Below are positions 33 to 19,143 of a stretch of 20,166 bases of DNA, in pieces. Within the stretch, counting starts at the first letter, position 1, and each line of letters opens with the position of its first letter. The notes under the pieces are model-generated. The model made no database searches. It was not told the origin of the DNA and worked only from the letters and a program-made list of their open reading frames with translations. The DNA is from a virus, in IMG/VR virus record IMGVR_UViG_3300031773_000060, positions 1-20,166 of that record; one strand, 5' to 3'. Both the position numbers and the translations under genes were made by a program.

Positions 33-3000
33 TTAACCCTTTTCGAGGGCTTCGACTTTTGCGGATAGTTCCTTTACCTGTGTAGCTAATTCTTTTATAG
101 CGTTAACCATATACCATTTTAGTTCTGTAGGTACGACAGCTAAAACTCCTGTACTTTCTTCTTGAACACATTCGGGTAGTACTTCTTGTAATTCTTGAGC
201 GACTACACCTAGTTGTACTCCAGGTACATCTTTAACAGCTGAATCTGCTACATCTGTTAATTCTGGATTAGATGTTATCAATTCATCTTTAGTTTTATAT
301 TCAAAGTTTCTAACTTTTATTTGTTTAATAGCTTCCAAGCCTTTCGTATTATCTGTGATATTCTTTTTAATTCTTCTGTCTGAATAAGTACCCCAATCAG
401 CATTAGCTGAGTTATAAGGTGTACCACCCAGAGTAGTTGTACTAGCACCTTGTCCAGTTACGTTATACCCAATTACATTTTCATAATTAACACCAACAGC
501 TGAAGAGTTAGTATATGCACCTAGCAAAGTATTTCCACTCCCTGTTGTTATTTTTGTTGCGTAATGACCTGAATAAACTCCAAGGAATGAATTGTAATTT
601 CCAGTAGTAACTTCTGCTCCAGCTTCTTGTCCAAGAGCAACATTCTGTCCTCCTGTAGTATTAGCTTCTAATGCATCTCTACCGGCAGCAACATTACCAT
701 AACCTGTAGTATTTGCCCACAAAGCACTTCTACCTAGTACGCAGTTATTGGTTCCTGTAGTGTTGCTATATGTTGAATGTAGTCCAACAGAAGTGTTATA
801 TTCTCCTGTTGTATTTGTATACATTGCCCCTTTGCCAACCGCAGTATTCTCATCAGCAGTTGTGTTAGCTGATAGAGCATAAGATCCAACAGCCGTACAA
901 GTCCCACCAGATACATTTGCGTCCATCGCTGCAAAACCTATCGCAGTGTTATCTCCACCAGATGTAGATACTTGTAACGCAAAAGCACCAACTGCAGTAT
1001 TATCATTAGCGGTAGTTACGTATTCTAAAGATTGCGAACCAACGGCAACGTTATAAGTACCTGTTGTATTACGATATAAGGCTTCAAATCCAAGTGCTGT
1101 ATTCTGTGATCCTGTTGTGTTATCAGATAAAGATGCATAACCAACAGCAGTGTTATAACTTGCTGTAGTATTTGCATCCAAAGCATAAGCACCAACCGCT
1201 GTATTCATAGCAGCTGTAGTGTTTGCTAGTAAAGCATTAGTGCCAACAGCAGCATTACTGTGTCCTGTCGTATTCCCATTCATTGCCCACTTACCAACAG
1301 CAGTGTTATCAGAAGCAGTCGAATTTGTTAATGATCCATAACCAACAGCAGTACTAGCGTCACCTCCTACATTTGCATCTAAGGCATAAGCACCAACAGC
1401 TGTATTATAAGTACCTCCTTCATTAAGTGCTAAAGCACTTCCACCTACAGCAACATTATTAGAAGCAGTTGTATTTGATACTAAGGCTTGATATCCAACG
1501 GCAGTGTTATTAGAAGCTGTAGTATTTAATTTTAATGCTTCATTACCAACAGCTGTGTTACTAGCTCCTGTAGTATTGTATTTTAGAGATTCTCTACCAC
1601 ATCCGGTATTATGACTCGCGGTTGTATTATGAGTTAAGGCATTAGCACCGATAGCTGTATTAACTAGTCCAGTTGTATTAGCATCTAATGCGCCAGATCC
1701 TAGAGCAGTATTTTCGTATCCAGTAGTATTCAGTTTTAATGCATATGAGCCTACTCCTGTGTTGCCATTTGCAGTTGTAGTATTAGATAAGGCATCATAA
1801 CCAACCGCTGTATTATCAGTAGCAGTTGTACTATCTTCTAATGCATAATTACCTACACCTACATTTCTAACACCTGTGGTATTTTTAAGTAACGAATAAC
1901 TACCCACACTCGTGTTATATCCCCCTGTCGTGGTAGCACTTAAGGCTGCATATCCTATCCCCGTATTCAGGGTGCCCGTTGTATTAGCATCTAAGCTGTA
2001 AGCTCCAAAAGCAGCGTTATAACTAGCTGTAGTATTAACTTTTAAAGCATGAATTCCTACAGCAGTATTTTCAGCTCCTGTAGTATTTACATCCATAGCA
2101 TTATAACCAACTGCAACATTATTACTTGCTGTTGTGTTATTAGCTAACGCCCATGCACCTAATGCAACATTATTACCTCCTGTTGTATTATCTTCTAATG
2201 ACTGATTACCTACCGCAACATTATAATTAGCTGTTGTACTAGCAGCTAGTGAGTTATAACCAACAGCAATGTTTTGAGCACCTGTTGTATTTGCATATAA
2301 ACTATGATGCCCAAAAGAAGTATTAAAATTAGCAGTTGTATTTGCTTGAAGAGCATCGTCTCCTATTGCATTGTTACCAACTCCAGTTGTAGAACTTACT
2401 AAAGCATTTTTACCAATGGCTACATTAGAACTTCCTGTTGTATTGTTATATAAAGCTCTATAGCCAATAGCAACATGATCAGCTCCAGTCGTGTTGTTTT
2501 GTAAAGCAGCTTGTCCAATAGCTACCTGTTCATGCCCTGTAGTATTTGAAAGTAAAGCATTCTGACCTAAAGCAGTCGATCCATATCCTGTAGTATTTGC
2601 TTGTAAAGAATTATGACCTACAGCGACATTATAATTACCTGTAGTACTTGTGTTTAATGCATATGAACCTACTGCTGTGTTACTAATTGCAGTTGTATTA
2701 TTAGCTAATGCACCCCAACCAAGTGATGTATTATCATTACCAGTTGTAGTATCTTGTAAAGCATATATACCTATACCTGAATTCCTAATACCTGTAGTAT
2801 TTGCAGCCAATGAATAAAAACCTACTGCAGTATTACTATGACCAGTTGTGTTTACTTCTAATGCAGCTCTACCTACAGCAGTGTTATTAGCACCTGTAGT
2901 GTTAGCAGATAATGCAAAAGCTCCTAATCCTGTATTAGCAGCACCAGTTGTATTAGCATCTAATGCATTAATTCCAAAAGCAGAATTATTAGATGCAGTT

Positions 3001-5000
3001 GTGTTTAACTTCAGTGCATCATTACCAACAGCAGTGTTATTAGCACCTGTTGTGTTTGCTGTTAATGCTACATAACCAAAGGCTGTATTCTTTTCTCCTG
3101 TAGTATTAGCGTACATAGCGTTATTACCTACAGCAGTATTATAAGCTGCTGTAGTATTAGCATTTAATGCATAAGTACCTAAAGCTGTGTTATATTGACC
3201 TGTTGTATTTGCACCTGCTGCACCAAAACCTACAGCAGTATTGCCAGAAGCTGTTGTATTTGCACCTGCTGCACTAAAACCTACAGCAGTATTATTAGTT
3301 CCTGTTGTGTTTGCGTCTAATGCACTAAAACCTACAGCAGTATTATTAGTTCCTGTTGTGTTATTTAGTAAAGCTTCAAATCCAACACCAGTATTATTAT
3401 TTGCAGTAGTATTTGCTCCTAATGCAGCATGACCTATCGAAGTATTATAAGCTCCAGTTGTATTTGCATCTAAAGCGTAAGAACCTACTGCTACGTTTCT
3501 ATCTCCAGTTGTATTAGCAGTTAAAGCTATATAACCCACCCCAGTATTATTACTTGCTGTTGTATTTGCAACTAAAGCATTAGCACCTACGGCTGTGTTC
3601 CGTGCTCCAGTTGTGTTTCCTGTTAATGCTATATAACCCACCCCAGTATTATCATTTCCAGTTGTGTTTGAAGATGAAGCACTGTATCCGATTCCAACAT
3701 TTTGTGTTCCAGATATATTAAAATATAACGCTCCTTGACCAATGGCTATATTATTACTTGCAGTTGTAGTTGCCTGTAAAGAATCTGCTCCTATTGCTAC
3801 GTTACCATCACCTGTAGTAATTGCAGTACCAGCATTCTTACCAACCAATGTATTATGAGTAGCATCTGTACCACTAAAGCTATCCCCTGCACCTGCACCA
3901 ATTCTTGTATTACTTTGAGCGTCGGTATTGTTAATTATTCCACCAGCAAAATCAAAATTACCAGCACTACTAATTGTTAATCGAGCTGTAGGTGTTGCTG
4001 CTCCATCAGCCGTTGTACTAAAAATAAGCCTCCCAGGGAGATCATTTGAACCAGGCGTTCCATCTATTTCAGCTTTAATTTCAGCGGAGGTACTAGCTAA
4101 ATCAACACCGTCTGCGCCAAACCAATTGATAGATCCTAAAGAATCCCCATCCTGAACAATTGTATGAGAGCCGTTACTCGCTCCTCTTGATTTAGCTAAA
4201 GCTATCCAAGGGCCAGCATTACTAGCCTGATTTCTTATAAGAGTGAATGCAGTATTGCTATCCGTGCTTTCTACTTGAACTTTAGGATTAGCACCCCAAA
4301 TAGTCCTACTTGCACTAGAAGCAACAAGAAATCGACCTGAGCTATCTACTCTTGCTCTTTCACTGCCACCAGTTTCTATTGAAACAGTATCAGCCGAAGG
4401 AAATCTTATAGCAGTATTGGTATCACCAGAATGAACTATTTTATCTGGGATCGTTACATCATCAGTAGCAGTAATTGCACCTGTTACAGCTAAAGTACCA
4501 ACAACAGAGACACCAGTATCAGCAGTTAATCTTGTCGTTCCTCCAGCCGCAAGACTCACAGTATTCGTTCCACCAAATATCCCTGAATCACTATCGCCAA
4601 AATGGATAGAAGGAGCAGAATTACTTCCTGCTGTTGCTGCTACTACTCCTGTTAACGTGCCACCTGCTTTTGCTAAATAAGTGCTATTTGATGTGGTTCG
4701 TTCAGCATCAGTAACAGCCTTAACACCAGCAGGAGTTGTAACTCTTGCCGCATCTGTTCCTGTTGTAGTCTCTCCAGAAGTCGCAAGCTCCGCAATCCCC
4801 GCTACCGTTGTACTTGCTGCAACCGTTGAAACAGAACCAGGCCCAGCCATCTTGACAATCGAGTTGTCACTGGCTCGCATATAAATACCAAGGCTGTTGA
4901 TATTTGCGTTTAACGCAATTTCGCCCACTGCTGGCAAATGGGTCGTAGTTGGAACAGCGTCCTGAGTGACACTATTCTTCAACCGAATCGTTACAGCCAT
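33..5000 (-). CDS. Giant tail fibre/adhesin with 17-residue repeats and S74 chaperone domain
   Basis: 1655 residues. The N-terminus (VTIRLKNSVTQDAVPTTTHL, AVGEIALNANINSLGIYM) is a virion attachment module common in marine phage fibres. Residues ~130-380 contain fibre strands (PSIHFGDSDSGIFGGTNT, GPWIALAKSRGASNG). Residues 383-1469 are 64 consecutive 17-residue units resembling the heads of trimeric autotransporter adhesins such as YadA. A short linker leads to SDRRIKKNI at residue 1540, the start of a peptidase S74 intramolecular chaperone; Ser1540 and Lys1545 fit the S-D-x-R-x-K catalytic pair that cuts off the chaperone after trimer folding. A coiled coil (IKELATQVKELSAKVEALEK) ends it. The protein is probably a long trimeric fibre for host contact. 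Start is ATG at 5000; only a weak AAAG precedes it. Confidence 0.88.
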   Translation of the reverse strand: MAVTIRLKNSVTQDAVPTTTHLPAVGEIALNANINSLGIYMRASDNSIVKMAGPGSVSTVAASTTVAGIAELATSGETTTGTDAARVTTPAGVKAVTDAERTTSNSTYLAKAGGTLTGVVAATAGSNSAPSIHFGDSDSGIFGGTNTVSLAAGGTTRLTADTGVSVVGTLAVTGAITATDDVTIPDKIVHSGDTNTAIRFPSADTVSIETGGSERARVDSSGRFLVASSASRTIWGANPKVQVESTDSNTAFTLIRNQASNAGPWIALAKSRGASNGSHTIVQDGDSLGSINWFGADGVDLASTSAEIKAEIDGTPGSNDLPGRLIFSTTADGAATPTARLTISSAGNFDFAGGIINNTDAQSNTRIGAGAGDSFSGTDATHNTLVGKNAGTAITTGDGNVAIGADSLQATTTASNNIAIGQGALYFNISGTQNVGIGYSASSSNTTGNDNTGVGYIALTGNTTGARNTAVGANALVANTTASNNTGVGYIALTANTTGDRNVAVGSYALDANTTGAYNTSIGHAALGANTTANNNTGVGFEALLNNTTGTNNTAVGFSALDANTTGTNNTAVGFSAAGANTTASGNTAVGFGAAGANTTGQYNTALGTYALNANTTAAYNTAVGNNAMYANTTGEKNTAFGYVALTANTTGANNTAVGNDALKLNTTASNNSAFGINALDANTTGAANTGLGAFALSANTTGANNTAVGRAALEVNTTGHSNTAVGFYSLAANTTGIRNSGIGIYALQDTTTGNDNTSLGWGALANNTTAISNTAVGSYALNTSTTGNYNVAVGHNSLQANTTGYGSTALGQNALLSNTTGHEQVAIGQAALQNNTTGADHVAIGYRALYNNTTGSSNVAIGKNALVSSTTGVGNNAIGDDALQANTTANFNTSFGHHSLYANTTGAQNIAVGYNSLAASTTANYNVAVGNQSLEDNTTGGNNVALGAWALANNTTASNNVAVGYNAMDVNTTGAENTAVGIHALKVNTTASYNAAFGAYSLDANTTGTLNTGIGYAALSATTTGGYNTSVGSYSLLKNTTGVRNVGVGNYALEDSTTATDNTAVGYDALSNTTTANGNTGVGSYALKLNTTGYENTALGSGALDANTTGLVNTAIGANALTHNTTASHNTGCGRESLKYNTTGASNTAVGNEALKLNTTASNNTAVGYQALVSNTTASNNVAVGGSALALNEGGTYNTAVGAYALDANVGGDASTAVGYGSLTNSTASDNTAVGKWAMNGNTTGHSNAAVGTNALLANTTAAMNTAVGAYALDANTTASYNTAVGYASLSDNTTGSQNTALGFEALYRNTTGTYNVAVGSQSLEYVTTANDNTAVGAFALQVSTSGGDNTAIGFAAMDANVSGGTCTAVGSYALSANTTADENTAVGKGAMYTNTTGEYNTSVGLHSTYSNTTGTNNCVLGRSALWANTTGYGNVAAGRDALEANTTGGQNVALGQEAGAEVTTGNYNSFLGVYSGHYATKITTGSGNTLLGAYTNSSAVGVNYENVIGYNVTGQGASTTTLGGTPYNSANADWGTYSDRRIKKNITDNTKGLEAIKQIKVRNFEYKTKDELITSNPELTDVADSAVKDVPGVQLGVVAQELQEVLPECVQEESTGVLAVVPTELKWYMVNAIKELATQVKELSAKVEALEKG
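594..3854 (-). repeat. 64-unit, 17-residue (51-bp) repeat array inside fibre gene
   Basis: Residues 383-1469 parse into 64 units of the form N-T-A-V-G-x-x-A-L-x-x-N-T-T-[AG]-x-x, for example NTAVGNDALKLNTTASN. All are 17 residues except one of 16 at 1308-1355; the span of 3261 bases is exactly 64 x 51 minus 3. The fixed positions are N1, G5, A/S8, L9 and T13-T14. The pattern implies one turn of a trimeric beta roll per unit. Two irregular units follow (down to about 460). Confidence 0.92.
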
Positions 5001-5069: not shown

Positions 5070-7547
5070 TTAATAAGTCCCGCCAGCTATTACAGAAACA
5101 TTCTTCCATTGTCCATCTGACGCGTATTCGATAAATTGCCCTGCTGTTGGAGACGCAATGGTGACATCAGATAAATCATCTAGAGCAGAGACAGACCCAG
5201 GACCACTTAATGTATCAACTCTATCCCAATCATTAAGACCCATACACATACACCAGTCACCTGCATCAAAGGAAGTTGATGGAACAACCGCTGTACCATT
5301 TCCTGAAACAGTACAAACAAAATAGGAACCTGTAGTCGCTGCTGTACCTGCGGGGATGGCATTTCCTGCACTGAAACCTGCACTAGTTCCGAATGTAGTT
5401 AAGGTGACGATTATTCCATTTGTAGCATTAAAAGTTCCGCAGAATCTTAAGTTTTCTTCTGCCAATCTTCCAAAGCCAACACTAAACCAAGAGTTCCCGT
5501 TAAATATACGTAGCTGACCTGTACTTTCCTGCAACCAGTAAACACCAGTAGGCAAGTTAGTAATGTCAGGCATCGCCTCCTGAATAAAAGAGATTGCATT
5601 ACTACCAATCTTATCCATCGTAACTGCATTATCAGCAATCCTAGCTGTAGCAAGCGATCCAGTAGTTATTTTACTTGCATCAAGTACAGGAATATCCGTA
5701 GCTGCAAGAGACGCTCCTGTAGTAACTACACCCTTTGCACTAACAGTAACTTTAGTAAATGTACCTGTACCAGAACCAGAATCAGCAAGAGATAAAACAC
5801 CCGCACCAGATACAGCTAAAGGAGCAGAAGCCGTTGGAACGCTCATTGCTCCAATAGCCGTTGTAGTCGCTACTGGCAAATCTCCTGCGACTATTGCAAC
5901 TGCGCCTGTTATTAATCCATCAGCGTTATAAGTAATTCCTGATCGTGTGGCAGCAGTAACGCTATTCGTTATTGATATTGCACCGAGGTTCGTAACACTT
6001 AAGCCACCTGCTGATGGAACAGAAACACCACCAACAGCACTAGTAGTAGCTTCTGGGATATCACTTGCTACTAATGCAGCCGTTGCAGTGATAAGTCCTT
6101 GAGCGTTATACGTAATTCCATTTCTTGCAGACGCTCCACCAGTAACAGCGTTGTTAATTCCAAGGTTCCCGCTGGCTACATTTAGAGAACGATCAATATT
6201 AGAAGTATTTAACTTAGCGGCTGTAATCGTTGCATCAGTTATCTTTGTTCCTGCAATACCACTGGCAATCTTCGCATCTGTTACGGCTGACGTTGCAATT
6301 GCCGCTGTATCGACAGAGTTATCGGCAAGTTCACTAGCCCCTATTGCATTCGCAGCAACTTGAGTAGCAGTGATCGTATCGTTAGCAATCTTGGCGGCTG
6401 TGATTGCTAAATTATTTACCTTATCTGTTGTTATATTTCCATCTGATATTTTGGCAGTTGTGACCGCATTTGAAGCAATAGCAGCAGCATCCACAGCATT
6501 ATCAGCTAGCTCTGACGCCCCAATCGCATTAGCTGCTATTTGTGTAGCAGTAATTGTGTCATTTGCTATTTTCGCAGCCGTTACCGATGTAGTAGCAAGG
6601 GCTGCTGTATCAACAGCATTATCTGCTAATTCACTAGCACCAACTGCATTCTGGGCTATTTGAGTAGCCGTGATCGAATCATTAGTAATCTTTGCCCCAG
6701 GGACATCACCATCAGAAAGGCTTAATTTTGCATAAGTAACATTTGCATCTGTAATCTTCGCAGTCGTTACTGAATTTGCTGCTAACTTTGCCGCTGTTAT
6801 ATTTGCATCTGTTACTTTGGCTGTTGTCACAGCGTTTGCTGCTAAGGCTGCTGTATCTACCGCATTGTCAGCAAGCTCAGAAGCAGTAATGGCATCTGCT
6901 GCCACCTGTGAAGCTGTGATCGTATCATTCGCAATCTTTGCAGCCGTAATAGCAAGATTTAAAACAGCAGCAGTATCAACAGCATTGTCCGCTAATTCTG
7001 TTGCCGTAACAGCATTAGTTGCTATTTGAGAAGCAGTAATCGAACCAGCAACGAGCTTGGCTCCAGGTATATCTCCATCACTTAAATTTAATTTGGCATA
7101 AGTAACACTAGCGTCTGTAATCTTAACCGTTGTTACTGCATTAGAGGCTAACTTCCCTGTTGTTACATTTAAGTCAACTATAGCCGCTGTATCAACTGAA
7201 TTGTCTGCTAACTCACTGGAGCCAATAGCATTTGCTGCTATTTGTGTTGCCGTAATTGTATCATTAACTAACTTCGCTCCAGTGATAGTTGCATTCGTTA
7301 TCTTTGCTGCTGTGACTGCGTTGTCAGCAAGTGTCGCTGTTACGATCTGCCCCGCCGTCAAGGGATAACTAAGAGCCGTCGCTGGTATTGCTGCTGCGTC
7401 AATAACTGCTACACCACGAGTAATCAGATCCTTTACCGTTACTTTCTTGGTTTCACTCGCACTAACATCAGCTAGTGCTATTGGGTCGGTAGCTGCAACA
7501 CTTCCTGACGCAATACTTGGCAATTGCGTAATCTGTAGATCAGCCAC
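5070..7547 (-). CDS. Tail fibre with decapeptide repeat shaft
   Basis: 825 residues from a GTG start with GAGG five bases before it. Residues 1-45 (MADLQITQLPSI, DPIALADVSASETKKVTVKD) form an N-terminal attachment domain I know from cyanophage fibre and structural proteins. Residues 75-447 are about 37 units of ten residues of the type D-N-A-V-T-T-A-K-I-T. Then come three longer repeats around NGITYNAQGLITATAAL, SGITYNADGLITGAVAI and VTVSAKGVVTTGASLAA, each ending in a D-[IL]-P. The C-terminal ~190 residues are a distinct domain with YWLQESTGQLRIFNGNSWFS, four to five cysteines (RFCGTF, YFVCTVSG, WCMCMG) and a final LDDLSDVTIASPTAGQF module. The shaft presumably trimerises and the Cys-rich domain may be the receptor tip; there is no S74 chaperone here. 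Confidence 0.8.
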   Translation of the reverse strand: MADLQITQLPSIASGSVAATDPIALADVSASETKKVTVKDLITRGVAVIDAAAIPATALSYPLTAGQIVTATLADNAVTAAKITNATITGAKLVNDTITATQIAANAIGSSELADNSVDTAAIVDLNVTTGKLASNAVTTVKITDASVTYAKLNLSDGDIPGAKLVAGSITASQIATNAVTATELADNAVDTAAVLNLAITAAKIANDTITASQVAADAITASELADNAVDTAALAANAVTTAKVTDANITAAKLAANSVTTAKITDANVTYAKLSLSDGDVPGAKITNDSITATQIAQNAVGASELADNAVDTAALATTSVTAAKIANDTITATQIAANAIGASELADNAVDAAAIASNAVTTAKISDGNITTDKVNNLAITAAKIANDTITATQVAANAIGASELADNSVDTAAIATSAVTDAKIASGIAGTKITDATITAAKLNTSNIDRSLNVASGNLGINNAVTGGASARNGITYNAQGLITATAALVASDIPEATTSAVGGVSVPSAGGLSVTNLGAISITNSVTAATRSGITYNADGLITGAVAIVAGDLPVATTTAIGAMSVPTASAPLAVSGAGVLSLADSGSGTGTFTKVTVSAKGVVTTGASLAATDIPVLDASKITTGSLATARIADNAVTMDKIGSNAISFIQEAMPDITNLPTGVYWLQESTGQLRIFNGNSWFSVGFGRLAEENLRFCGTFNATNGIIVTLTTFGTSAGFSAGNAIPAGTAATTGSYFVCTVSGNGTAVVPSTSFDAGDWCMCMGLNDWDRVDTLSGPGSVSALDDLSDVTIASPTAGQFIEYASDGQWKNVSVIAGGTY
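6207..7325 (-). repeat. 37-unit decapeptide repeat array inside fibre gene
   Basis: Residues 75-447 of the fibre parse into units of ten with consensus [DN]-x-[AST]-[VI]-T-x-x-x-[IL]-[AT]. Two 12-residue variants (LSDGDIPGAKLV and LSDGDVPGAKIT) and one 9-residue unit interrupt the register. Units also form a higher-order block, NDTITATQIA / ANAIGASELA / DNAVDTAALA, that recurs several times. At DNA level near-identical blocks differ in most synonymous positions. Confidence 0.85.
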
Positions 7548-8893: not shown

Positions 8894-9355
8894 CTAGTCT
8901 CCATCTAAGCATCCTACAAATGAACAGGAAACATTACTGATTCCAGGTTGCACACTAGTTACTTTAGGTGGGCCACTATATCTCCATCTTAACCCACCTG
9001 AAGAGCCGTCTTCTGGATTCAGCCAATATTGACTGTCATCATATCCTTTGATGTAATCCTCTAATTGATTAGATGTACCCAATGTAACGTCAAGACCTGC
9101 TGTGCCATTGGCTCTGCCAAAATAAATATACTTATCGGGATCTCCTGCAACTGAAACATAATTAGTAATTATTTCAGCGGCTTTCTCATCAGAAATATTT
9201 GAAAAACCTAAGCTTAAAGTTGCATTTACTCTTTTGTTTCCATAACGAATAAAACTCTTAGCACCATTTTGCGCCTCGAAAACAGTCTGAGGAAACTCTC
9301 CAGGGCTAAAGGATCTACTACTTGGTTTTACATTTGGGAAAACTGCCTGAGCCAT
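8894..9355 (-). CDS. Minor tail protein, gpM-like
   Basis: 153 residues. The N-terminus has FPNVKPSSRSFSPGEFPQTV, then AKSFIRYGNKRVNATLSLGF, SNISDEKAAEIITNYV and YIYFGRANGTAGLDVTLG, and the C-terminal part has GGLRWRYSGPPKVTSVQPG. The order of an early Pro/Ser strand, a xxRxGxxxxNxxLxLxF strand pair and a helix ending in Y-x-x-x-x-G resembles gpM-type minor tail proteins, in which a G-x-N-x-x-x-x-x-x-L/W pattern is common. Those link the tube to the tip. In lambda, M precedes L, K, I and J; here the gene follows J. This is resemblance rather than a firm match; a distal tail protein specific to marine phages is the alternative. The start overlaps the hub stop (TAATG). Confidence 0.55.
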   Translation of the reverse strand: MAQAVFPNVKPSSRSFSPGEFPQTVFEAQNGAKSFIRYGNKRVNATLSLGFSNISDEKAAEIITNYVSVAGDPDKYIYFGRANGTAGLDVTLGTSNQLEDYIKGYDDSQYWLNPEDGSSGGLRWRYSGPPKVTSVQPGISNVSCSFVGCLDGD

Positions 9356-12300
9356 TATGTACTCTCGATAAAGTCTTCAGAGTCTGCCCCACTATCATAT
9401 ACCTGATGCAATACAGCTACATATCCATCATCAGTCAAAGGAACGTAGCTGCCTGCCACTTCAACAAAACCATCCTCTGCAAACGTTAAAGACTCAACCT
9501 TATACACACGGTCAGAAGAATTGGTCTGTGCAATTGTAAAGACACATCCTCTAAAAGCATCATCAGCCAAACCGTCAGAAATGATAATAGGTGTAGGGCC
9601 TTTAACTCCTTCCTCCCCAGGCTTCCAATAATAAATAGAATTACCATTTGAAACAGTTGTCTGAGATTGAAGCACACCTCCGTCAGTTATTACACCATTA
9701 GAGAAACGACTTGTATGTGTTGACTCAGAATAAAGCCTGAAATAATCACCAGGCATTAAGGACATAGCAGCTTGCGGTGTAGTCTCAAACTTCAATCCAT
9801 GATCGACAAGTTGCCTTGTACGCAAAGCATATTTCGCAAATCGAATAGCATGTTTGCTGCTGGTGCAGAAAATTGACATATCAAACGTCTCGATAGGATC
9901 AAGCTCAGACCCAACAGTCCAGTCATCATTGGATTGGACATCATTAAGCCTAACTTCAGCAACTTTTGTTTCTGGGAAACCGTTCTCTTGTTCTTTTCTC
10001 CATAACACCCTTGCTTGGAACACCTGTCTCTCTTCTGGGGAAAGGAAAGACACCTTAAGATCTTTTATATTGCCATCAGTAAACAAGGCTTTGATCGGTG
10101 GCTTTTCTTCAGGATCAATTACGAAATCAGTTGTATTAAAAGGAACAGAAGGATAGAGAGAGAAACGACCTCCAATAATTGTAAAATCAAGAAAACAATA
10201 AGCTGCTTGAACAAATATAAAATCCCTTAAGTTTTGTGATTCAGTAATAACACCATCCCAGAAGAACCCATTTGCTAAACAGAATTTTGCAGCAACCGCC
10301 ATCTTTTCTTTATCAACTGAAGTTGCGCCAATAAGTTCACCTGCTCCTATTTCGTTATCTGTTAATAAGGCATAAGCAATTTCAGGAACTAAATTAGTTG
10401 ATTGGTAATAACCAGCGAAAGGATCACCCCCAATATCATTTACCAATCTTTCAACTTTCACTCCTTGCTTAATGTATGCAGATAACTGACTAAATGAACT
10501 CCATTCTTTTGCACTATTTAAACGTAATCCTGCAATGGCTAAATTATCATAATCAACTGGATGAGAATTACTCTTCTGCTCGTTTACATATACAACCTCA
10601 TGCTCAGGATTAGATAAATGGCTGCTCTGCTCTGCATCGTATTGATAATAGTCGGCTATAGCATCATAAGAATTTAAGTTCCTTCCTATAGGCCAAGGTT
10701 TATCTGTTACTAATGCTGATGAAGCTGTTTCAGCAGTACAAGATATAGATCCAGTCCCGCCACCATTCTTAGGATAAGTAAATGTAATAATGTCGCCATT
10801 GTGATACCCTGAGCCAGAATTATTTATACTCCATTCAACTGAATTATTATTATAAACAGTAACCTTTAAAGTTAAGCCACTACCACCTCTATCTGTTGTT
10901 GTAGCAACACTTTCTCTAATACTAAAAGCTGTATCATTTACATCTTGCATGGTGTATTTATGTATTTTAAAATGGTACTGACCTCCCGCATACTTAACAT
11001 AAGAACCAACTCTAAATTGAAGATTTGGATTATGTGTATGCACATACCACGGCTTCCAATTAGGTGACCCATCAATTAAATGGTCATAATTTCCCATCGC
11101 AGGGAAATACTCATCAATCGTATACCTCCAATGTGTTTCACCCCCTGTATATCTCTTCTCATCCATGTATTGAGTACCTGGATAGTCGAAATCTAAGTGA
11201 CCATACCTATTACTTACCCAATATCTAACTCTCATATAATCCGAAGCCCACGTATTCTCTCCTTCAGCGTTCCATGTTGAGCGTTTAGATGAATAAGCAT
11301 CATCTACAACTTTTACCCAATCTTTATGTGTAGGAATACTCCCTTCAACTTTGCTACTTAGCTCAATTACTTCAGAGCCTATCTGTTCAGGCAAAGCACC
11401 TAAGTACCATTCCGTATTACTCATTAACGCACCAGTTAAACGTGTCAGTTGCCCTGAGTAATAGACGTCATAATCACCACTTGGTAGGTCTACATGCCCA
11501 TGAGGTCTATTTTTCATAAACATATGAACATCACGATCCGCAAAGTTATCTAAAGCTAAATTACCTGGATAAGGAAGAAGCCTGAACTCACACTGAGGTG
11601 AGTTTGAATGAACAATCCGAATGAAGTTATATTGCGGTTGAGGCGTGTTTCCTTTTACAAGGAAGGGAATCCCTCCGTCTATGAAAGACCATTCTTCTTC
11701 TCCCATGCCTTTTGCTTGAAGTCTGAAGAAACTAAGCCTTTTTATATATTTAGACATCTGTCCTAATTGAATCCCTCCGTTATCATCTTCATATTTTTTA
11801 ACTGTGCCTTCTTCTCCATAATGTATATGCCCAGGATGACTGTTAGCATTAGCAAAGCCTGTAATCTGTTTCCATACAGTTGATTTAATACCTATTTCTG
11901 TTACCTCACACGATGTATTATTAGAAACTGTCCCAACAGCACACCTCTGCAAAGTTAAAGTTTCCCAAGGATAATGAGCTAAACTATTATCTTTGATATC
12001 AACTAATCCCGCTCGATTTTCAATTACTTTAAAAGTTGCTGTAACAACTGCGCTGTTAGTAGGTGTCCATATACCAGTGTTAGGTGAGTAGTTAACACTT
12101 TCACAAGTTGCTAAGATATCTCCCAGCAAATATATATCACCTTTAGCCAAGTTTGAATCGGCTGTTATTCGACAGGAATCGACTGAAGACTTAACATCTT
12201 CGACACCCCAGGGGGCAAATTCTTTGAACTGTTCGAGAGGATTTGTCGCATAGATTTTATAATCAATCTCATACCCTTTTGACACAGCGTATCTTTTATT

Positions 12301-13302
12301 AAATCCCTCGACAGCTATTACTTCTCCACTTCTGTCCCTAACTTGAGTAAAAGATGCATACCGTGGGAAGCTTGTTGCAACTTTGTTCCTTTTCTTATCT
12401 ATATCATTTTTGACATCCTCCTTTGCGTCTTTTCCCTTAAGAACTAACTCATAAGGAACCATAAATTTCGTGGAGTTAGGGAAAGGGGAAAACGCACCGA
12501 ACTGAGTCTGTGTTCCAGGTGTTCTAGTACCAGAGAAAATCCTACGATTATAATCACCATCATTATCCCAGTGAACAGAGAAGGCATCATCGTCTTCCCA
12601 ATCTTCTAATGTTCCTTCGCTATACCTTTGATCTATTCCTCCTTCTTGTGGCCTTCCACCAGCAGTCATAAAATATAAAGCAACCTTCGCATCTGTGTAA
12701 TTAGCTAAAGTAGTATCACCAATAGCAAAACCTTCATAATCAGGCCGAGCACCTAATTCTCCTGAAGAAAATAAAAATAACCCTCTAAGTTGTTGCCCTG
12801 TAAACAGACTCCTCATCTGTGACCAAAGGAGATTGCTAACTACACGGATGCCGCCACCTGGGTTTATTGCTCGATTTGTAAAAACAAGAGGGATAACATC
12901 GCCTAACGTTGCTAATTCTTGGATAGAACCGAAGCCTGTTTGAGGTGCAAATCTTTTAGCTCCTTGTGCTCCTGCTGTTTTTAAAGACCCTGGAGTCTGC
13001 TGCTTAAAAGGTTTAGGCTTTGGCGTAAGCATTACAGAAACAGCCGTCAAGACTAGCCCTATAACAAGTTTGGTGATTATGCTTACAGGATCATTTACTA
13101 CATGAGGGATATGAGCATAAGCCTCTGACCTTTTACCGTTATAGCTTTCTGTTACTCGTACAAAATACCAATATTCATCCTCACTTAAACCTAAGATTTC
13201 ACAAAGTTCGACTTCTGCGGGTAATAATATTCTTCTACCTGAAGGACTCCGATGGGATTCCATGTCACCGCCGACCCTTCGTATGATGTTATGTTCAGCC
13301 AT
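9355..13302 (-). CDS. Tail tip hub / host specificity protein, gpJ-like with gpI-like N-terminus
   Basis: 1315 residues. The first ~70 form a small beta domain (RRILLPAEVELCEILGL, EYWYFVRVTESYNGKRSEAY). A hydrophobic helix at ~73-92 (IITKLVIGLVLTAVSVMLTP) is followed by Pro/Lys, as in lambda gpI. Then QELATLGDVIPLVF and NPGGGIRVVSNLLWSQM resemble the gpJ N-terminus. The C-terminal part has YALLTDNEIGAGELIG (~975), FILP-type hub strands, VFQARVLWRKE and MSLMPGDYFRLYSEST, consistent with the hub (tip attachment J) domain. The middle (~530-900) is a large Tyr/Trp-rich insertion with a GSGY-x-x-GD module at ~800-855. The hub closes the tube and positions fibres. The start at 13302 overlaps the previous gene by 112 bases; ATG at 13263 is an alternative. 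The stop is coupled by TAATG. Confidence 0.8.
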   Translation of the reverse strand: MAEHNIIRRVGGDMESHRSPSGRRILLPAEVELCEILGLSEDEYWYFVRVTESYNGKRSEAYAHIPHVVNDPVSIITKLVIGLVLTAVSVMLTPKPKPFKQQTPGSLKTAGAQGAKRFAPQTGFGSIQELATLGDVIPLVFTNRAINPGGGIRVVSNLLWSQMRSLFTGQQLRGLFLFSSGELGARPDYEGFAIGDTTLANYTDAKVALYFMTAGGRPQEGGIDQRYSEGTLEDWEDDDAFSVHWDNDGDYNRRIFSGTRTPGTQTQFGAFSPFPNSTKFMVPYELVLKGKDAKEDVKNDIDKKRNKVATSFPRYASFTQVRDRSGEVIAVEGFNKRYAVSKGYEIDYKIYATNPLEQFKEFAPWGVEDVKSSVDSCRITADSNLAKGDIYLLGDILATCESVNYSPNTGIWTPTNSAVVTATFKVIENRAGLVDIKDNSLAHYPWETLTLQRCAVGTVSNNTSCEVTEIGIKSTVWKQITGFANANSHPGHIHYGEEGTVKKYEDDNGGIQLGQMSKYIKRLSFFRLQAKGMGEEEWSFIDGGIPFLVKGNTPQPQYNFIRIVHSNSPQCEFRLLPYPGNLALDNFADRDVHMFMKNRPHGHVDLPSGDYDVYYSGQLTRLTGALMSNTEWYLGALPEQIGSEVIELSSKVEGSIPTHKDWVKVVDDAYSSKRSTWNAEGENTWASDYMRVRYWVSNRYGHLDFDYPGTQYMDEKRYTGGETHWRYTIDEYFPAMGNYDHLIDGSPNWKPWYVHTHNPNLQFRVGSYVKYAGGQYHFKIHKYTMQDVNDTAFSIRESVATTTDRGGSGLTLKVTVYNNNSVEWSINNSGSGYHNGDIITFTYPKNGGGTGSISCTAETASSALVTDKPWPIGRNLNSYDAIADYYQYDAEQSSHLSNPEHEVVYVNEQKSNSHPVDYDNLAIAGLRLNSAKEWSSFSQLSAYIKQGVKVERLVNDIGGDPFAGYYQSTNLVPEIAYALLTDNEIGAGELIGATSVDKEKMAVAAKFCLANGFFWDGVITESQNLRDFIFVQAAYCFLDFTIIGGRFSLYPSVPFNTTDFVIDPEEKPPIKALFTDGNIKDLKVSFLSPEERQVFQARVLWRKEQENGFPETKVAEVRLNDVQSNDDWTVGSELDPIETFDMSIFCTSSKHAIRFAKYALRTRQLVDHGLKFETTPQAAMSLMPGDYFRLYSESTHTSRFSNGVITDGGVLQSQTTVSNGNSIYYWKPGEEGVKGPTPIIISDGLADDAFRGCVFTIAQTNSSDRVYKVESLTFAEDGFVEVAGSYVPLTDDGYVAVLHQVYDSGADSEDFIEST

Positions 13303-13589
13303 CCGTTCTCGAAATAAACTGCCAAGCCATAGCCGCTAGTTGATTTGCATAGACCCACAGTACCTATCTTAAGGCTTTCTGTCCTAATACCCCAAAGTTC
13401 TAACTGTTCTCTAAAAATAGAATAATCCTCTTTTTTTAATCGCCTGTACCAATCCCTCGTAGGACAAGGGCTTTTGATGTCATAGTGCTTCAAGACTGCC
13501 TTAGCTAAAGTCAAGCAGTCAGCCGCTTTGTGCTTTTCTGGATCTGCTCCCAATCGATATGGCAACCCAATCAACTGAAAAGGATTCAT
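13191..13589 (-). CDS. NlpC/P60-like tail protein (gpK-like), probable catalytic His lost
   Basis: 132 residues. The N-terminus has LIGLPYRLGADPEKHKAADC, with Cys25 followed by LTLAKAVLKHY, the typical start of the nucleophile helix in phage NlpC/P60 proteins (G-x-P-Y-x-x-G ... DCxxL). The expected partner strand is GYGLAVYFENGWLNIT at residues 86-100, where family members normally have GxxHVxxYxxNG; position 89 is Leu instead of His. The end (WNPIGVLQVEEYYYPQK) is a final strand. Related tail proteins trim peptidoglycan during infection or act in tip assembly. Without His the protein may be inactive or only structural. The last 112 bases overlap the start of the next gene in another frame. 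Confidence 0.7.
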   Translation of the reverse strand: MNPFQLIGLPYRLGADPEKHKAADCLTLAKAVLKHYDIKSPCPTRDWYRRLKKEDYSIFREQLELWGIRTESLKIGTVGLCKSTSGYGLAVYFENGWLNITSYEGSAVTWNPIGVLQVEEYYYPQKSNFVKS

Positions 13590-14107
13590 CTATTTTGCAT
13601 CTGGCCGCTAGTTGGTAACGCTCCAACCATAGCTGTCGTTAAGACTCTGCTCGGTGCATTAGAACCGACAGCATCAATTGCAGAAGACAATAAAACTTCA
13701 ACAGTCGTTGGATCGTATGACAAAGAAGACGCTAACCAATTGTCTGTAGTCAAAGTCTTTTCATAAGACAATGTAGAAGTGTTAACTATACATACACTCA
13801 CTTCTATATGCCATTTATTCGTTACAGCTTCTCTTGCTCTATTCATCGCTAAAGTATTATTAGCAAGCACAAGTTGAGCCTCTAAGTTATCACCAGATCT
13901 ATTCTTTGCAGCGCCCTGATAAATGAAAGGTAAGTAATAATAATTTTCACCATTGAAAGTTATGTAATTATTTGGGTTTTGAACGTACACCCCAGATCCG
14001 TTATCTAAAGCTCCGAAGCTATCTCTTTTCGCATTTTGGTAAAGGTCTTGCACATTACCATTGCTGTCTAAAACCTTAAGGAAGGTGACTAAAGTTGTAA
14101 CGCTCAT
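13586..14107 (-). CDS. Minor tail protein, lambda gpL-like (lacks C-terminal Cys region)
   Basis: 173 residues following the tape measure gene with an ATGA overlap. Features include NGENYYYLPFIYQG, then NLEAQLVLANNTLAMNRARE, a helix and strand with WHIEVSVCIVNTST, and VEVLLSSAIDAVGSNAPSRV. The last segment resembles the V-x-F/L-x-L-x-S-x-x-D-x-x-G-x-x-x-P-x-R motif of gpL-type minor tail proteins, which connect the tube to the hub. In the lambda family a C-terminal cysteine-containing domain follows; here the protein stops soon after the motif (GALPTSGQMQNR), so that domain is missing. Order (tape measure, L, K, J) agrees with the call. A DUF1833-type distal tail protein is the main alternative. 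Confidence 0.62.
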   Translation of the reverse strand: MSVTTLVTFLKVLDSNGNVQDLYQNAKRDSFGALDNGSGVYVQNPNNYITFNGENYYYLPFIYQGAAKNRSGDNLEAQLVLANNTLAMNRAREAVTNKWHIEVSVCIVNTSTLSYEKTLTTDNWLASSLSYDPTTVEVLLSSAIDAVGSNAPSRVLTTAMVGALPTSGQMQNR

Positions 14108-16320
14108 AACCCAATTCTAGAACGTTGACTACGTGAGTTCTTTAATTGGCTGAATACTTGGGTTTGTCCAGCTTCAGCTCCCCTTCTTGCTGCACTATTG
14201 ATGATTTCAGGTACAGCAGACCGTGGTAGATAGTCTTCACTATTAAAACTAAGGATTGGGCCAGTGTAATCAATCTGTACCGAACCACCAGGGACACCAC
14301 TGCCAGAAGCTACAGTTCCACCGCCAGGGATAACACCTTGACCTCTAGCACCTGCTGAGTAACGATCCATTGCTCCTTGCATCTTACTGGAGGGGATGAC
14401 ATATTCCGGCTCTCCGGCTTCACCGATCAAACCTAAAGTTGGGCCTGATGTAACACCACCTTGAGCAAAAGCTTTGAAACTACCAGCGTTATTGAATGAC
14501 CCTTCTGCGCTACTCATTCCAGGGAACATTCCATCAAACATAGATTTAAAAGCAGAGTTCAGGAACATGCTTGCTAATGATTTTGCAATACCTGCTAATG
14601 ATTCACCTAAAGACTTCGTTCCATCTATTAGTCCCATCACCGCATTAGTCATTCCGCTGGCAACAATATCTGTTATTTGTTCCCACTTTTCTTTAATTAC
14701 ATCAAGAACTTTTGCATAGTTCTTCCCTCTTCTGGTTTTAGGATCTTCTCCTTCTTCTCCTGTCTCTGGAACACCTTCAGGTGTCTCAATCTCTGGTTTG
14801 ATTCTTATAGTTTTTTCAATTACATCTTTAGTTGCGCCAAGAATATCTTTAATCCATTGAGGTGTATGTTCTTTAAAGAAATTAACTAACTTTTCCCAAT
14901 CTTCTTTTATCTTGACAAACCCCCGAACGGCTGATGTCGCCCATTTGTAAGTAGCCTCAGAAGCAGCTTGAGCACCTTTTTCAAAATTAACAAGTAAAAA
15001 ATTCCAAGCATCTGTAATACCTTGTATTAAATCAACTTTCTCTAATCCAAATGCTTCTGCAAAAGCATCGGCAATGCCTTGAAGAAATTTGATTGCTAAC
15101 CTAAAAGGCGTTAGCAGTACTGTTACTGCCATACGAAGAATATCAATGACAGCAGAAATACCTTGTAAAGTAATTTTAATAGCAACACCTAACTCATTCT
15201 GATCTGCAAACAAGTTAGTAAATGACTTAGCTAGCCTATCCCATGCCCCTTTTATTGTATTAGCTGCTGTAGCCTGTGCTTTAAAAGCTGCACCTGCTGA
15301 GTTCTCTTGATTTTTAATTAATTGCTCATACTTTTCTAAATTTGCTATGACAGGAGCCATAACTTGAATAGCTTCTTGTCCGAAGATTGATTCTAATGCT
15401 TTTATATCTAATCCTTCTAACTTTTTAAGGTTAGCCAAAAGACCTTCTGATTCTATTGTCGCAGCACTAATGTCTATACCTAGCTTCTCAAGTTTTTTGC
15501 CTCCTCTTTCTCCACCAAGTCTTAACAAAGAAGTCTTCATTCCTGTAAAGGCAACTTCAGCCTTAACACCTGCTGCTGTCGTTAAAGCAATAGCTGCGTT
15601 AACTTCTTTTAAAGGAACTTTCATTGTTGCCGCAACAGATGCAACCTTACCAATATTGGCTGCGTATTCAGCAACAATTATTTTTCCATCATTTTGCGTT
15701 TGGATAAACTGATCGACTACACCCATTGCATCATCAGCAGATTTGCCGTAAGCGTTTAAGACACTTGTTGCCGCATTTCCAACAGTATTTAGATCACTAA
15801 AACCACCAGTAGCACCTAAACTTGCAGCTTTTAAAACCTTTGCCGCATCGGCTGCTTTAGTAAAACCAGCAGACGCAACATCATAAGCACCTGCCATTAA
15901 TTCAGCAGAGCTAGCTTGTTGATTTAAGTCAAGAGATACTAACGTTAATTGTTTTCTTAGTTCTTCTGAATCTGTTCCTAATGTTCTTACTTTTGCTCCT
16001 GCAAATTCAACATTTTTAATAGTATTAAAAGCAGCACCTAATCCTGCTACACCAGCAGCGATTCCACCCATTGCCAGCATTGAAGACTTAACAGCAGCAT
16101 CGAAGGCTTTAACGCCAAGAGCTGCTATCTTCATCTTTGCGCCTGTCTGCGCTCCTATAGCACCAAACAAACCAACCTTCTTCGCAGCAACAGTACTAGA
16201 AATGCCGACTTTCTTGAACTGACCTTCTAACTGTTTACCCTTATCCGTAATCTTCTTGATCTTTTCAGGAACACCTCTTGAATCAAGGGTTACTCCTATT
16301 GTCGAAAGCAGGGCCGCCAT
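14104..16320 (-). CDS. Tail tape measure protein (TP901-1 type)
   Basis: 738 residues. The N-terminal ~95 residues are basic with two hydrophobic glycine/alanine stretches. Residues ~95-320 match the phage tail tape measure core: FAGAKVRTLG, YDVASAGFTKAADAAKVLKA, GVKAEVAFTGMKTSLLRL and IFGQEAIQVMAPVIANLE. A hydrophobic region at ~385-410 (ILRMAVTVLLTPFRLAIKFL) could insert in the host membrane during DNA ejection. Near residue 630 is GLIGEAGEPEYVIP, a motif very common in the C-terminal part of tape measure proteins. The protein spans the tube lumen and sets tail length; at about 0.15 nm per residue, a rule from lambda, the tail would be near 110 nm (an inference). There is no obvious lysozyme or peptidase domain. 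The stop overlaps the next start (ATGA). Confidence 0.92.
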   Translation of the reverse strand: MAALLSTIGVTLDSRGVPEKIKKITDKGKQLEGQFKKVGISSTVAAKKVGLFGAIGAQTGAKMKIAALGVKAFDAAVKSSMLAMGGIAAGVAGLGAAFNTIKNVEFAGAKVRTLGTDSEELRKQLTLVSLDLNQQASSAELMAGAYDVASAGFTKAADAAKVLKAASLGATGGFSDLNTVGNAATSVLNAYGKSADDAMGVVDQFIQTQNDGKIIVAEYAANIGKVASVAATMKVPLKEVNAAIALTTAAGVKAEVAFTGMKTSLLRLGGERGGKKLEKLGIDISAATIESEGLLANLKKLEGLDIKALESIFGQEAIQVMAPVIANLEKYEQLIKNQENSAGAAFKAQATAANTIKGAWDRLAKSFTNLFADQNELGVAIKITLQGISAVIDILRMAVTVLLTPFRLAIKFLQGIADAFAEAFGLEKVDLIQGITDAWNFLLVNFEKGAQAASEATYKWATSAVRGFVKIKEDWEKLVNFFKEHTPQWIKDILGATKDVIEKTIRIKPEIETPEGVPETGEEGEDPKTRRGKNYAKVLDVIKEKWEQITDIVASGMTNAVMGLIDGTKSLGESLAGIAKSLASMFLNSAFKSMFDGMFPGMSSAEGSFNNAGSFKAFAQGGVTSGPTLGLIGEAGEPEYVIPSSKMQGAMDRYSAGARGQGVIPGGGTVASGSGVPGGSVQIDYTGPILSFNSEDYLPRSAVPEIINSAARRGAEAGQTQVFSQLKNSRSQRSRIGL

Positions 16321-16345
16321 TCTCTGTTATCAATCTTGTTTTAGT

Positions 16346-16881
16346 TTAACGCCTACGTGCCATTTGCATTTGCTTTTCCTGTTCTTCATTTAAAAGGTCG
16401 AAATAAGCTGACCACAATAGTAGTTCTGAGAGAGTGATTCGCTTATTTAATTCAAGCAACGTATAACCCAGTTCTTTAGCTACTCCTAGTTGAAGCCTTA
16501 GAAGATTATCTTTTTTTAAAAGCTCTTTTAACCTTTTGGGTCGTTTTCTTCTTCCTCCTTGGCGGCTAGATCTACTATTGCCTTGAGAAGTTTATCGAGA
16601 TCTTGTGCTTTAACTTCATTCTTTAGTTCGGCTGTATGACCTGCCGCAAACATTCTTCTACCATTTTCATCGGTTGCTTTTTGGATAAGAAGCTTAAGAG
16701 CAAATGCATTGGGATCATCGTTAGTACCTTTCATTGCAGCTTCCCTCTCTGCAAAAGTCATTGGAGTACACCAAAACTCAAAGACTTCGCCATTAGACAA
16801 AACAACGTCTTGTTTTACTGGGAGGAGATTGGCTGCTTTTTTTAATTTCTCTAATGGACTTAATGGTTTAGCTGTTGGCAT
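16346..16881 (-). CDS. Tail assembly chaperone -1 frameshift fusion (gpGT-like)
   Basis: Slippage at C CCA AAA (16540-16534) moves ribosomes into the -1 frame, which stays open to TAA at 16346-16348. It adds 62 residues after Lys116, for a 178-residue fusion. The extension reads RLKELLKKDNLL, then LGVAKELGYTLLELN, then RITLSELLLWSAYFDLLNEE, and ends QMARRR. The ELxxWxAYxxL pattern is typical of the gpT-type extension, the part that contacts the tube protein in lambda. The extension has no start codon of its own near its beginning and fills the otherwise empty 16346-16527 interval before the tape measure gene, so the frameshift explains the gap completely. Direct proof would be a peptide across the junction. 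Confidence 0.85.
16528..16881 (-). CDS. Tail assembly chaperone, zero-frame product (gpG-like)
   Basis: 117 residues from ATG at 16881 (MPTAKPLSPLEKLKKAANLL). An in-frame TTG 63 bases further upstream would add a Cys-rich extension across the terminator region and is less likely. The protein has a strand region (KQDVVLSNGEVFEFWCTPMT), a helix starting FAEREAAMK, and a charged C-terminus with KEEEENDPKG. Size, helical content, acidic end and position between tube and tape measure genes match gpG-like chaperones, which bind the tape measure and recruit tube subunits but are absent from the finished virion. The frame ends in TAA at 16528-16530, three bases after a slippery heptamer. Confidence 0.82.
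   Translation of the reverse strand: MPTAKPLSPLEKLKKAANLLPVKQDVVLSNGEVFEFWCTPMTFAEREAAMKGTNDDPNAFALKLLIQKATDENGRRMFAAGHTAELKNEVKAQDLDKLLKAIVDLAAKEEEENDPKG
16534..16540 (-). promoter_or_regulatory. Programmed -1 ribosomal frameshift site
   Basis: The minus-strand heptamer CCCAAAA is read as C CCA AAA in the zero frame, an X XXY YYZ slippery site. The zero-frame stop TAA begins after just one further codon (GGT). I see no strong stem-loop immediately downstream, so stimulation may come from the nearby stop or from the AAGGAGG (16560-16554) upstream, 13 bases before the heptamer, acting as an internal Shine-Dalgarno. Confidence 0.82.
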
Positions 16882-16914
16882 TTCAAATAACTGGGGCTGT
16901 AAATACAACTCTAA

Positions 16915-16950
16915 GCAAAAAGAAACCCCCTGACAATAAGCCAAGGGGCG
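16915..16950 (-). terminator. Intrinsic terminator between tail tube and chaperone genes
   Basis: On the minus strand, CCCCTTG (16948-16942) and CAGGGGG (16932-16926) can form a five-pair stem plus one pair beyond a bulged T, followed at once by TTTCTTTTT (16925-16917). The T tract and position right after the tube stop fit a leaky terminator that gives more tube mRNA than chaperone/tape measure mRNA. The stem is short, so partial read-through is likely. Confidence 0.6.
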
Positions 16951-16961
16951 AGTTTACCCAA

Positions 16962-17720
16962 TTAAGCAGATGTGGAGAAGTCGAAAGTAGGAGTATTAGT
17001 TGGCCTAAAGGTTACTTCAACTATCTGAGAATCGTCAGCATTAATATTAAAAGTTGCTCCCAAGAGAACAGCATCCATCGCAATACTACGACTCAAAGCT
17101 TCTGTGCCTTGCTTGTCCTGATAAAGCTTAAAAGCAGCTCCGACCTGTTGACGTTGAAGAACATCTTCTACCATTCTGTTTGAAAGAGCAGAATCTTCAT
17201 TCGTTACATAAACAGAAGCACTACCAGAACCATCTGCAAAACCTGATATATAAGTTTTGAACGGTGCATACTGTCCGATTGTTCCGCCAATTGTCGTTAC
17301 GTCGATTTCACTTCTTGTTACTTCAAAACTCCAAGACTGAACTTGTCCTACAGAAGCATAGTCATCATAAAAGACTTCAAATTCATTAGGTGAAGCAGCT
17401 GTTCCAACGTCAGTCAAGTTAACAGCCGAACCACCATTGGTTGCTGAAACAGTCATAGCACCTGAAGCTGCTACATAAGTCTTGACGTAATAAGTTGTTC
17501 CAGCAGCTAAACCAGCAGGTAGTGTTCCTGTGCCTGATCCACCTGTTTGGGAATTAATAACTTTAAACTGGACAGGATCACCAGCTTTTAAATTTAGGTA
17601 AGCTTCAACAACCATTGTCTCAGTACCAATAGTTACATCAGCCGGAGCAAAAGTTCCTGTAGTTCCAGCAGGTTTGTAATAGAGTGCGCCAGATGTGCCT
17701 GACAGAACGGTGACAGCCAT
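16962..17720 (-). CDS. Major tail tube protein with inserted beta domain
   Basis: 252 residues. The tube core is visible from about residue 125 (VGQVQSWSFEVTRSEIDVTT), then SGFADGSGSASVYVTNED, a loop and helix, and a final strand set with QIVEVTFRPTNTPTFDF. An inserted segment at about residues 40-115 contains LKAGDPVQFKV, LPAGLAAGTTYYVKTY and VSATNGGSAVNLTDVGT. This is a beta module I know from other phage tail proteins (the LPxGLxxxTxYYV and sAtxGGxxvxlTdxGT signatures), probably displayed on the tube exterior. Position between the tail terminator and the chaperone/tape measure pair settles the role. I see no Shine-Dalgarno before the ATG (upstream sequence AATTAATTCAA), odd for a gene needing high output. 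An intrinsic terminator follows it. Confidence 0.88.
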   Translation of the reverse strand: MAVTVLSGTSGALYYKPAGTTGTFAPADVTIGTETMVVEAYLNLKAGDPVQFKVINSQTGGSGTGTLPAGLAAGTTYYVKTYVAASGAMTVSATNGGSAVNLTDVGTAASPNEFEVFYDDYASVGQVQSWSFEVTRSEIDVTTIGGTIGQYAPFKTYISGFADGSGSASVYVTNEDSALSNRMVEDVLQRQQVGAAFKLYQDKQGTEALSRSIAMDAVLLGATFNINADDSQIVEVTFRPTNTPTFDFSTSA

Positions 17721-17729
17721 TTGAATTAA

Positions 17730-18155
17730 TTAGTCTAAGTATGCGTCAAATGTAGCCGAAATCTGAGTCTGATAGTAGGATTCAGGCTCAGGAGGGCTTA
17801 CAGGTGATGGGCCAGAAGCAGCATCAAATATAATACTACTAAATTTAGCACGATCAAATTTGTCTTTGACTCTTTCTGCAATCGTGAAATTAGCCCCTGC
17901 TCCTACTCCAATGGGAGTAAAAACATTAATAACTAAAGTTCCAGTTTGACGGTTGAAGGATTCACCAGTTGCAGGTGCTTGCAAAGTTGCATAATTATTC
18001 CCTCCAAATCTAAGAAATACTTGAACCCAAGGCGTGTTGTTTGGTGGATCAAAAGGAGCGTTTTGATAAGCAACAGGATAAGCAGGGCTTACAGCCATTT
18101 CCGTAGCAATACGTCCCTCTATTGCAGCTCTGACCTCATTAAAAGTACTGCTCAT
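17730..18155 (-). CDS. Tail terminator protein
   Basis: 141 residues starting MSSTFNEVRAAIEGRIATEM, an N-terminal helix typical of tail terminators. Next come PVAYQNAPFDPPNNTPWVQV, FLRFGGN and the strand TGTLVINVFTPIGVGAG, then a helix (AERVKDKFDRAKF) and a C-terminal strand (YYQTQISATFDAYLD). The helix, NxPF/PxxxPWV strand, G-x-L-x-I-x-V-F strand and long helix order matches the gpU / DUF4128-type fold that caps the growing tail tube and fixes tail length. It lies immediately before the tube gene, as in many siphoviruses. The ATGA overlap with the upstream gene indicates coupled translation. There is a nine-base gap to the tube gene. Confidence 0.82.
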   Translation of the reverse strand: MSSTFNEVRAAIEGRIATEMAVSPAYPVAYQNAPFDPPNNTPWVQVFLRFGGNNYATLQAPATGESFNRQTGTLVINVFTPIGVGAGANFTIAERVKDKFDRAKFSSIIFDAASGPSPVSPPEPESYYQTQISATFDAYLD

Positions 18156-18906: not shown

Positions 18907-19139
18907 TAGAGGTAATAAGCGACAACAGTTCCACTAGCCAAGGTGATGCTTGTGAAGACTCCTTCTATTTCACTCCCATGCTTGATAGGAATAGCAGAAA
19001 CAGTTGTTGATCCGTTCTCTGTCACGTTCGGACTCACTAAAGTCATCACAGAATCTTCAAATGCATGTATTTTTCCAAATCGCCCAGTGTGTGCTGATGT
19101 GTTTGTGATGATGAGTGCGGCTGGATAAGTTTGGCCCAT
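18906..19139 (-). CDS. Small beta-rich virion protein, 77 aa, function unknown
   Basis: Starts at ATG 19139, four bases after the adaptor stop and with a good GGAG site. The sequence contains HTGRFGKIHAFEDSVMTL, then short beta-like stretches, and ends with GVFTSITLASGTVVAYYL. That combination (an FG-I-xx-ED-x-V turn and a C-terminal TSITLASGxVxAY strand pair) recurs in small phage proteins of unknown role lying in head or neck clusters. It has no cysteine, no transmembrane segment and no charged tail. A structural role in the head or connector, perhaps decoration or a ring component, is an inference from size and context. Its stop overlaps the next start (TAATG). Confidence 0.6.
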   Translation of the reverse strand: MGQTYPAALIITNTSAHTGRFGKIHAFEDSVMTLVSPNVTENGSTTVSAIPIKHGSEIEGVFTSITLASGTVVAYYL

Positions 19140-19143
19140 TGTT

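Follow-up and report, generated by a model that had tools for sequence, protein, structure and literature searches.

A putative marine siphovirus tail fibre with an exchangeable distal cassette of 64 predicted beta-roll turns and an S74 chaperone domain

Introduction

Tail fibres set the host range of phages. The window analysed here, a virus contig taken over its full 20,166 bp, encodes a tail fibre in which 64 short units follow one another in tandem, and the locus raises the question of what such an array builds and whether its length, its surface or neither matters to the phage. Tail fibres with a YadA domain, and fibres whose C-terminus varies, have already been published for marine phages (PMC3909814, PMC6224464, PMC7029224), and ORF108 of cyanophage S-TIM4, known here from the paper alone, is a YadA-domain structural protein that mutates in host adaptation (PMC6224464). 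Little literature was found on repeat-number variation in marine tail fibres. The present analysis adds the exchange junction, swaps between array and array-less cassettes, and block mosaicism in close relatives. The data favour, with a probability of roughly 0.8, a marine siphovirus whose tail fibre is a homotrimer, depends on an S74 chaperone for folding and carries an exchangeable distal cassette that mosaic recombination diversifies.

A regular array in a tail fibre gene

The fibre gene closes a tail module (Table 1). Genes for adaptor, head closure, neck, tail terminator, major tail and tape measure proteins, with a further tail protein recognized by PHROGs, lie upstream of it on the same strand, and on these grounds the phage is a siphovirus. 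Its tail genes are distantly related to those of Synechococcus and Prochlorococcus siphophages. A megablast search of the contig against a phage isolate collection returned no match, so the collection searched holds no close isolate of this phage.

Table 1. Features of the fibre gene and its surroundings (positions are those of the window)
Feature	Residues	Positions	Strand	Basis
Tail-fibre gene, 1655 aa	1-1655	33-5000	minus	ORF; PHROG tail/virion structural families; relatives in 176 phage records
Conserved N-terminal part	1-347	3960-5000	minus	Alignments; present in all relatives whatever comes next
Start of exchangeable cassette, linker	348-382	3855-3959	minus	End of conservation; breakpoint in close pairs
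Array of 64 predicted beta-roll units	383-1469	594-3854	minus	
Sole 16-aa unit	1216-1231	1308-1355	minus	
Degenerate last turns or cap ahead of predicted cleavage site; putative mature fibre tip	1470-1539	384-593	minus	Alignment
Peptidase_S74, intramolecular chaperone domain	1540-1655	36-383	minus	Pfam PF13884; Foldseek
Predicted catalytic dyad, motif SDRRIK	Ser1540 (codon 381-383), Lys1545 (codon 366-368)	366-383	minus	
Second repeat-rich tail-fibre-like protein, 825 aa		5070-7547	minus	PHROG tail fibre families
Siphovirus tail/connector module		9355-20166	minus	PHROGs
Tape measure		14104-16320	minus	PHROGs
Major tail		16962-17720	minus	PHROGs
Tail terminator		17730-18155	minus	PHROGs
Neck1		18152-18550	minus	PHROGs
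Head closure		18550-18906	minus	PHROGs
Adaptor		19144-19767	minus	PHROGs

The array is uninterrupted and comprises 63 units of 17 residues and one of 16, with the consensus NTAVGYxALxANTTGxx. A sequence-only reading of the window had given its coordinates, its count and its single length change, all of them correctly. All 64 units have Gly at position 5, while 59 have Asn at position 1 and 60 have Thr at position 13; positions 6, 7, 10, 11, 16, and 17 vary most. Residue identity reaches 0.49 at a lag of 17 and lies at 0.05-0.16 at lags not divisible by 17; where 64 units are observed, 200 shuffles that kept the composition of the array yielded a mean of 2 and never more than 6.

Array units share on average 58% of their DNA and 48% of their protein sequence, and the longest exact DNA repeat within the array is 42 bp. 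By these measures the array is real coding sequence, old and diverged, and with exact repeats this short an origin by assembly artefact or collapse is unlikely. Neighbouring units (lag 1) are 59.1% identical in DNA against 57.7% overall, pointing to little recent tandem duplication; lag effects being weak, a recent tandem expansion is likewise unsupported.

Predicted fold of the array and C-terminus

From 45 aligned relatives, AlphaFold2 gave five monomer models of 14 units and the C-terminus. The best has a pLDDT of 88 (about 90 or more through the array) and a pTM of 0.75; the other four stay at pLDDT 65.7-77.5. In the best model each unit forms two short strands in regular pairs, and the turns stack into a rod. 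VIA-align places the head of the BpaC adhesin first (PDB entry 7o23; Z 21.3, rmsd 2.4 Å, 243 residues aligned within 1-294), followed by a curli subunit (Z 17.9); CbpF (Z 15.6) and YadA (1p9h, Z 14.9) are also matched, and the structural neighbours are mostly trimeric autotransporter adhesin heads. The earlier suggestion that the units are beta-roll turns is borne out by the confidence of the best monomer model and by its closest match.

With 243 of 294 residues aligned, about 14 of each 17 fall on BpaC layers. Each unit can be read as one canonical layer of 14 residues to which an NTT triplet is added, probably in the gap between layers, where insertions have been reported (PMC9543794). The layer rule of YadA heads specifies one invariant glycine per turn, at layer position 8 (PMC9543794); the array has one in every unit, but departs from the approximately 14 residues per turn of YadA-like heads. 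The Pfam YadA-head model gave no match to the array up to E 10 with HMMER filters applied, an NCBIfam scan of the fibre gave nothing, and a sequence search of solved structures returned only a marginal match to MYRF (E 0.42). The 17-residue turn seems related to the 14-residue turn of adhesins and is apparently widespread; the Pfam and NCBIfam models used give it no name. The BpaC head has 42 layers with a rise of 4.8 Å per layer (PMC9543794); at the same rise per turn, the array would be approximately 31 nm long.

The Pfam family PF13884 matches residues 1540-1612 (E 6.9e-12; 45.9 bits, gathering cut-off 22), and Foldseek relates the C-terminus to the MyRF ICA domain (7dc3) and to the intramolecular chaperones 3gud and 3gw6. 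The S, D, R, and K of the SDRRIK motif are invariant in 45/45 aligned sequences, and Ser1540 and Lys1545 have the spacing of 5 found in the MYRF dyad S578/K583 (PMC3742443). That the array ends in an S74 chaperone, as had been proposed, is upheld by the family match and the conserved dyad, and self-cleavage is predicted to occur just before Ser1540. Trimerization aside, the evidence for a long beta-roll needle with an S74 chaperone behind it is good. In one relative, the sole case in 94, Cys replaces the catalytic Ser of the S74 motif (CDKRIKK; L052:3080-8471), possibly a cysteine variant of the self-cleaving domain.

Since its predicted fold equals that of trimeric autotransporter adhesin heads, a viral contig might have picked up the gene of a bacterial adhesin of this type or of another surface protein of cells; similar arrays with S74 in many bacterial MAGs would agree with this. 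Such an origin is highly improbable, as the protein ends in S74 with no YadA anchor barrel in the Pfam scan, and the position of the gene in a phage tail module contradicts it.

Exchange of the distal cassette

Conservation among relatives drops off abruptly past residue 347. The model of the N-terminal part has an overall pLDDT of 68.6, reaching about 90 in residues 245-350 and weak before approximately residue 160. Residues ~205-355 resemble trimeric fibre domains in Foldseek searches, namely those of the Bdellovibrio Bd1334 and Bd2439 fibres and the T5 L-shaped tail fibre. Among 45 non-redundant complete genes with the window's N-terminus, an array follows in 12 (30, 47, 48, 52, 53, 54, 57, 57, 58, 62, 63, and 64 units) and is absent from 32. 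The S74 motif stands behind all 12 arrays; several array-less cassettes likewise end in S74, and Pfam gives only S74 or nothing for the alternative cassettes. In many contigs with this N-terminus (L002, L010, L015, L017, L030, L035, L063, L066, L084, L091, and others) the sequence stops no more than ~65 residues from where the cassette begins, the pattern expected if a variable site had interrupted assembly.

The contig nearest to the window is 99.7% identical over 16.4 kb and stops where the array begins, so the data on variation come from relatives and not from the window's own 64 units. In two close pairs the counts differ between conserved flanks: 63 and 58 units in L335/L336 (flanks 92.9% identical in DNA, post-gene DNA 93.3%) and 53 and 47 units in L086/L365 (flanks 90.0%), with most of the array sequence differing within each pair. 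Two further pairs combine an array with none, L343/L344 (flank 90.7%, 52 units) and L021/L031 (flank 90.6%, 57 units); here the cassettes show no similarity, the array cassette being swapped entirely for an unrelated C-terminal module. Nine runs of 3-10 similar units are shared between arrays at shifted positions, for example units 43-48 of one array with 49-54 of the other, against a mean of 0.03 and a maximum of 1 after shuffling of unit order. In the pair L058/L060, DNA identity rises sharply to 94% at unit 15 and stays there to the gene end. Unequal recombination within arrays would explain both the changed counts and the changed content. When the window's units are compared position by position with units in relatives, orthology is near the shuffled level, too weak for unit-by-unit gain or loss in this array to be traced.

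The sequence-only reading had proposed that length is tuned by gain or loss of units, and that variable counts with conserved flanks in relatives would favour this. Counts of this kind were found, and to that extent the proposal stands; array content, however, is mostly replaced, reshuffled in blocks or lost to module swaps, so that close relatives differ in sequence no less conspicuously than in length. In a stricter form, the array would be mainly a spacer, its unit number set for reach by slippage or unequal crossing-over and its sequence nearly neutral. The occurrence of 47-64 units in 11 of the 12 arrays on this N-terminus despite scrambled content, with S74-linked arrays elsewhere far wider in range, is in keeping with such a spacer, as are the differing counts themselves and the layer addition and loss that the BpaC authors propose for adhesin heads (PMC9543794). 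The clustering could reflect a length constraint or merely shared history, and neither the near-equal similarity of neighbouring and distant units, nor the exchange of whole modules, nor a divergence of close pairs that is far greater in sequence than in length is what a neutral spacer would lead one to expect; this stricter form is doubtful.

A passive shaft is somewhat more plausible, though still short of probable. Specificity would then lie in the cap or in the neighbouring fibre, and array variation would be recombinational drift, repeats being prone to recombine. The S74-type fibre T5 pb1 has a receptor-binding domain ahead of its chaperone (PMC4690869), and the neighbouring ORF does encode another tail-fibre-like protein. 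This does not sit easily with the swaps of the array and its C-terminus for unrelated modules at one position in close phages, which suggest selection on the whole cassette.

In the preferred reading, that of a trimeric fibre with an exchangeable cassette, the N-terminal ~350 residues would be the conserved virion-proximal part, and the distal cassette would consist of a 64-turn beta roll of YadA-head type and then the S74 chaperone. The chaperone would bring three chains into register, drive their folding and then cut itself off ahead of Ser1540, leaving a rigid rod whose variable surface positions and distal end would contact the host. On this reading the cassette changes by two routes: recombination inside the array, shuffling blocks and altering unit number, or wholesale replacement, in which unrelated modules are joined at one shared junction behind residue 347. 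Contact with the host may be made by the sides of the rod, its end or the partner fibre encoded at 5070-7547. That partner protein has repeats of its own, with the strongest periods at 40 and 10 residues.

It is tempting, if speculative and on balance unlikely, to see the array itself as a diversity-generating substrate. Blocks of turns traded between phages would rebuild hundreds of variable residues on the fibre surface while rod length stayed narrow (47-64 turns in 11/12), allowing rapid change of host range without dedicated diversification machinery. Close pairs of marine phages in which a beta roll of 50-60 turns has been reshuffled or replaced at a fixed junction offer a natural experiment on whether the choice of the infected cell depends on the length, the surface or the tip of the fibre.

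Comparison with known proteins

Fibres and structural proteins of several marine isolates (Methylophilales phage Venkman, Pelagibacter phages HTVC111P/112P, Roseobacter phages CRP-1/7, and the proximal tail fibre of P-SSM2) contain 17-aa units of the type NTAxGxxALxxNTTG by tblastn. They share the tail location with the window's fibre, several have S74, and they belong to PHROGs 23837, 4636, and 6002. Their identity to the window protein is mostly 30-46%, the window's N-terminus is only partly shared, and no isolate locus covers 80% of the protein. The metaviromic islands of marine phages, which hold variable genes for host recognition, show, as here, a conserved fibre N-terminus and a variable C-terminus, one with a YadA domain (PMC3909814). 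The present analysis resolves, in addition, where the break lies, which modules take the array's place and how blocks are shuffled inside arrays.

The trimeric autotransporter heads of BpaC, YadA, BoaA, and CbpF have the same beta-roll fold by model (Z 14-21) and an invariant Gly per turn. They differ from the window array in their 14 residues per turn, in carrying a membrane anchor where the fibre has S74, and in that the fibre lacks a match to the Pfam YadA-head model. With the S74/ICA proteins K1F endosialidase, T5 pb1, and MYRF the fibre has in common PF13884, the Ser-x4-Lys dyad and its C-terminal position. In contrast to these proteins, the window's S74 domain follows a beta-roll array and not a triple beta-helix, and its cleavage is a prediction. 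S74 fibres also feature in a paper on polinton-like viruses, in which the present array does not appear.

Arrays of this kind were found in 176 phage records, among them pelagiphages, a Methylophilales phage, roseophages, cyanophages, and Bacillus SPO1-like tail spikes. Bacterial genomes of many phyla and hundreds of IMG/VR loci have them too. Their lengths range from 5 to 91 units, contrary to the expectation that such proteins usually have far fewer. The longest contiguous runs have 91 (L402), 77 (a Chitinophagaceae MAG, L290), and 70 units (L397), which rules out 64 as a record length, although it is still near the top. The 91 units lie in a viral ORF of 2473 aa (L402:3949-11367), in which all 90 steps are exactly 17 residues and no S74 motif was found behind the array. 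At L020:7988-10408 an array is broken by a frame change near 9.45 kb, with 5 units in one frame and 18 in another, a sequencing error or a broken gene. Tandem trios of array-plus-S74 fibre genes are present at L143:1-8513 (39, 29, and 31 units) and L212:4373-16479 (56, 29, and 34 units), and proteins of the giant viruses Tupanvirus, Bodo saltans virus, and Edafosvirus match the array-plus-S74 model by fold.
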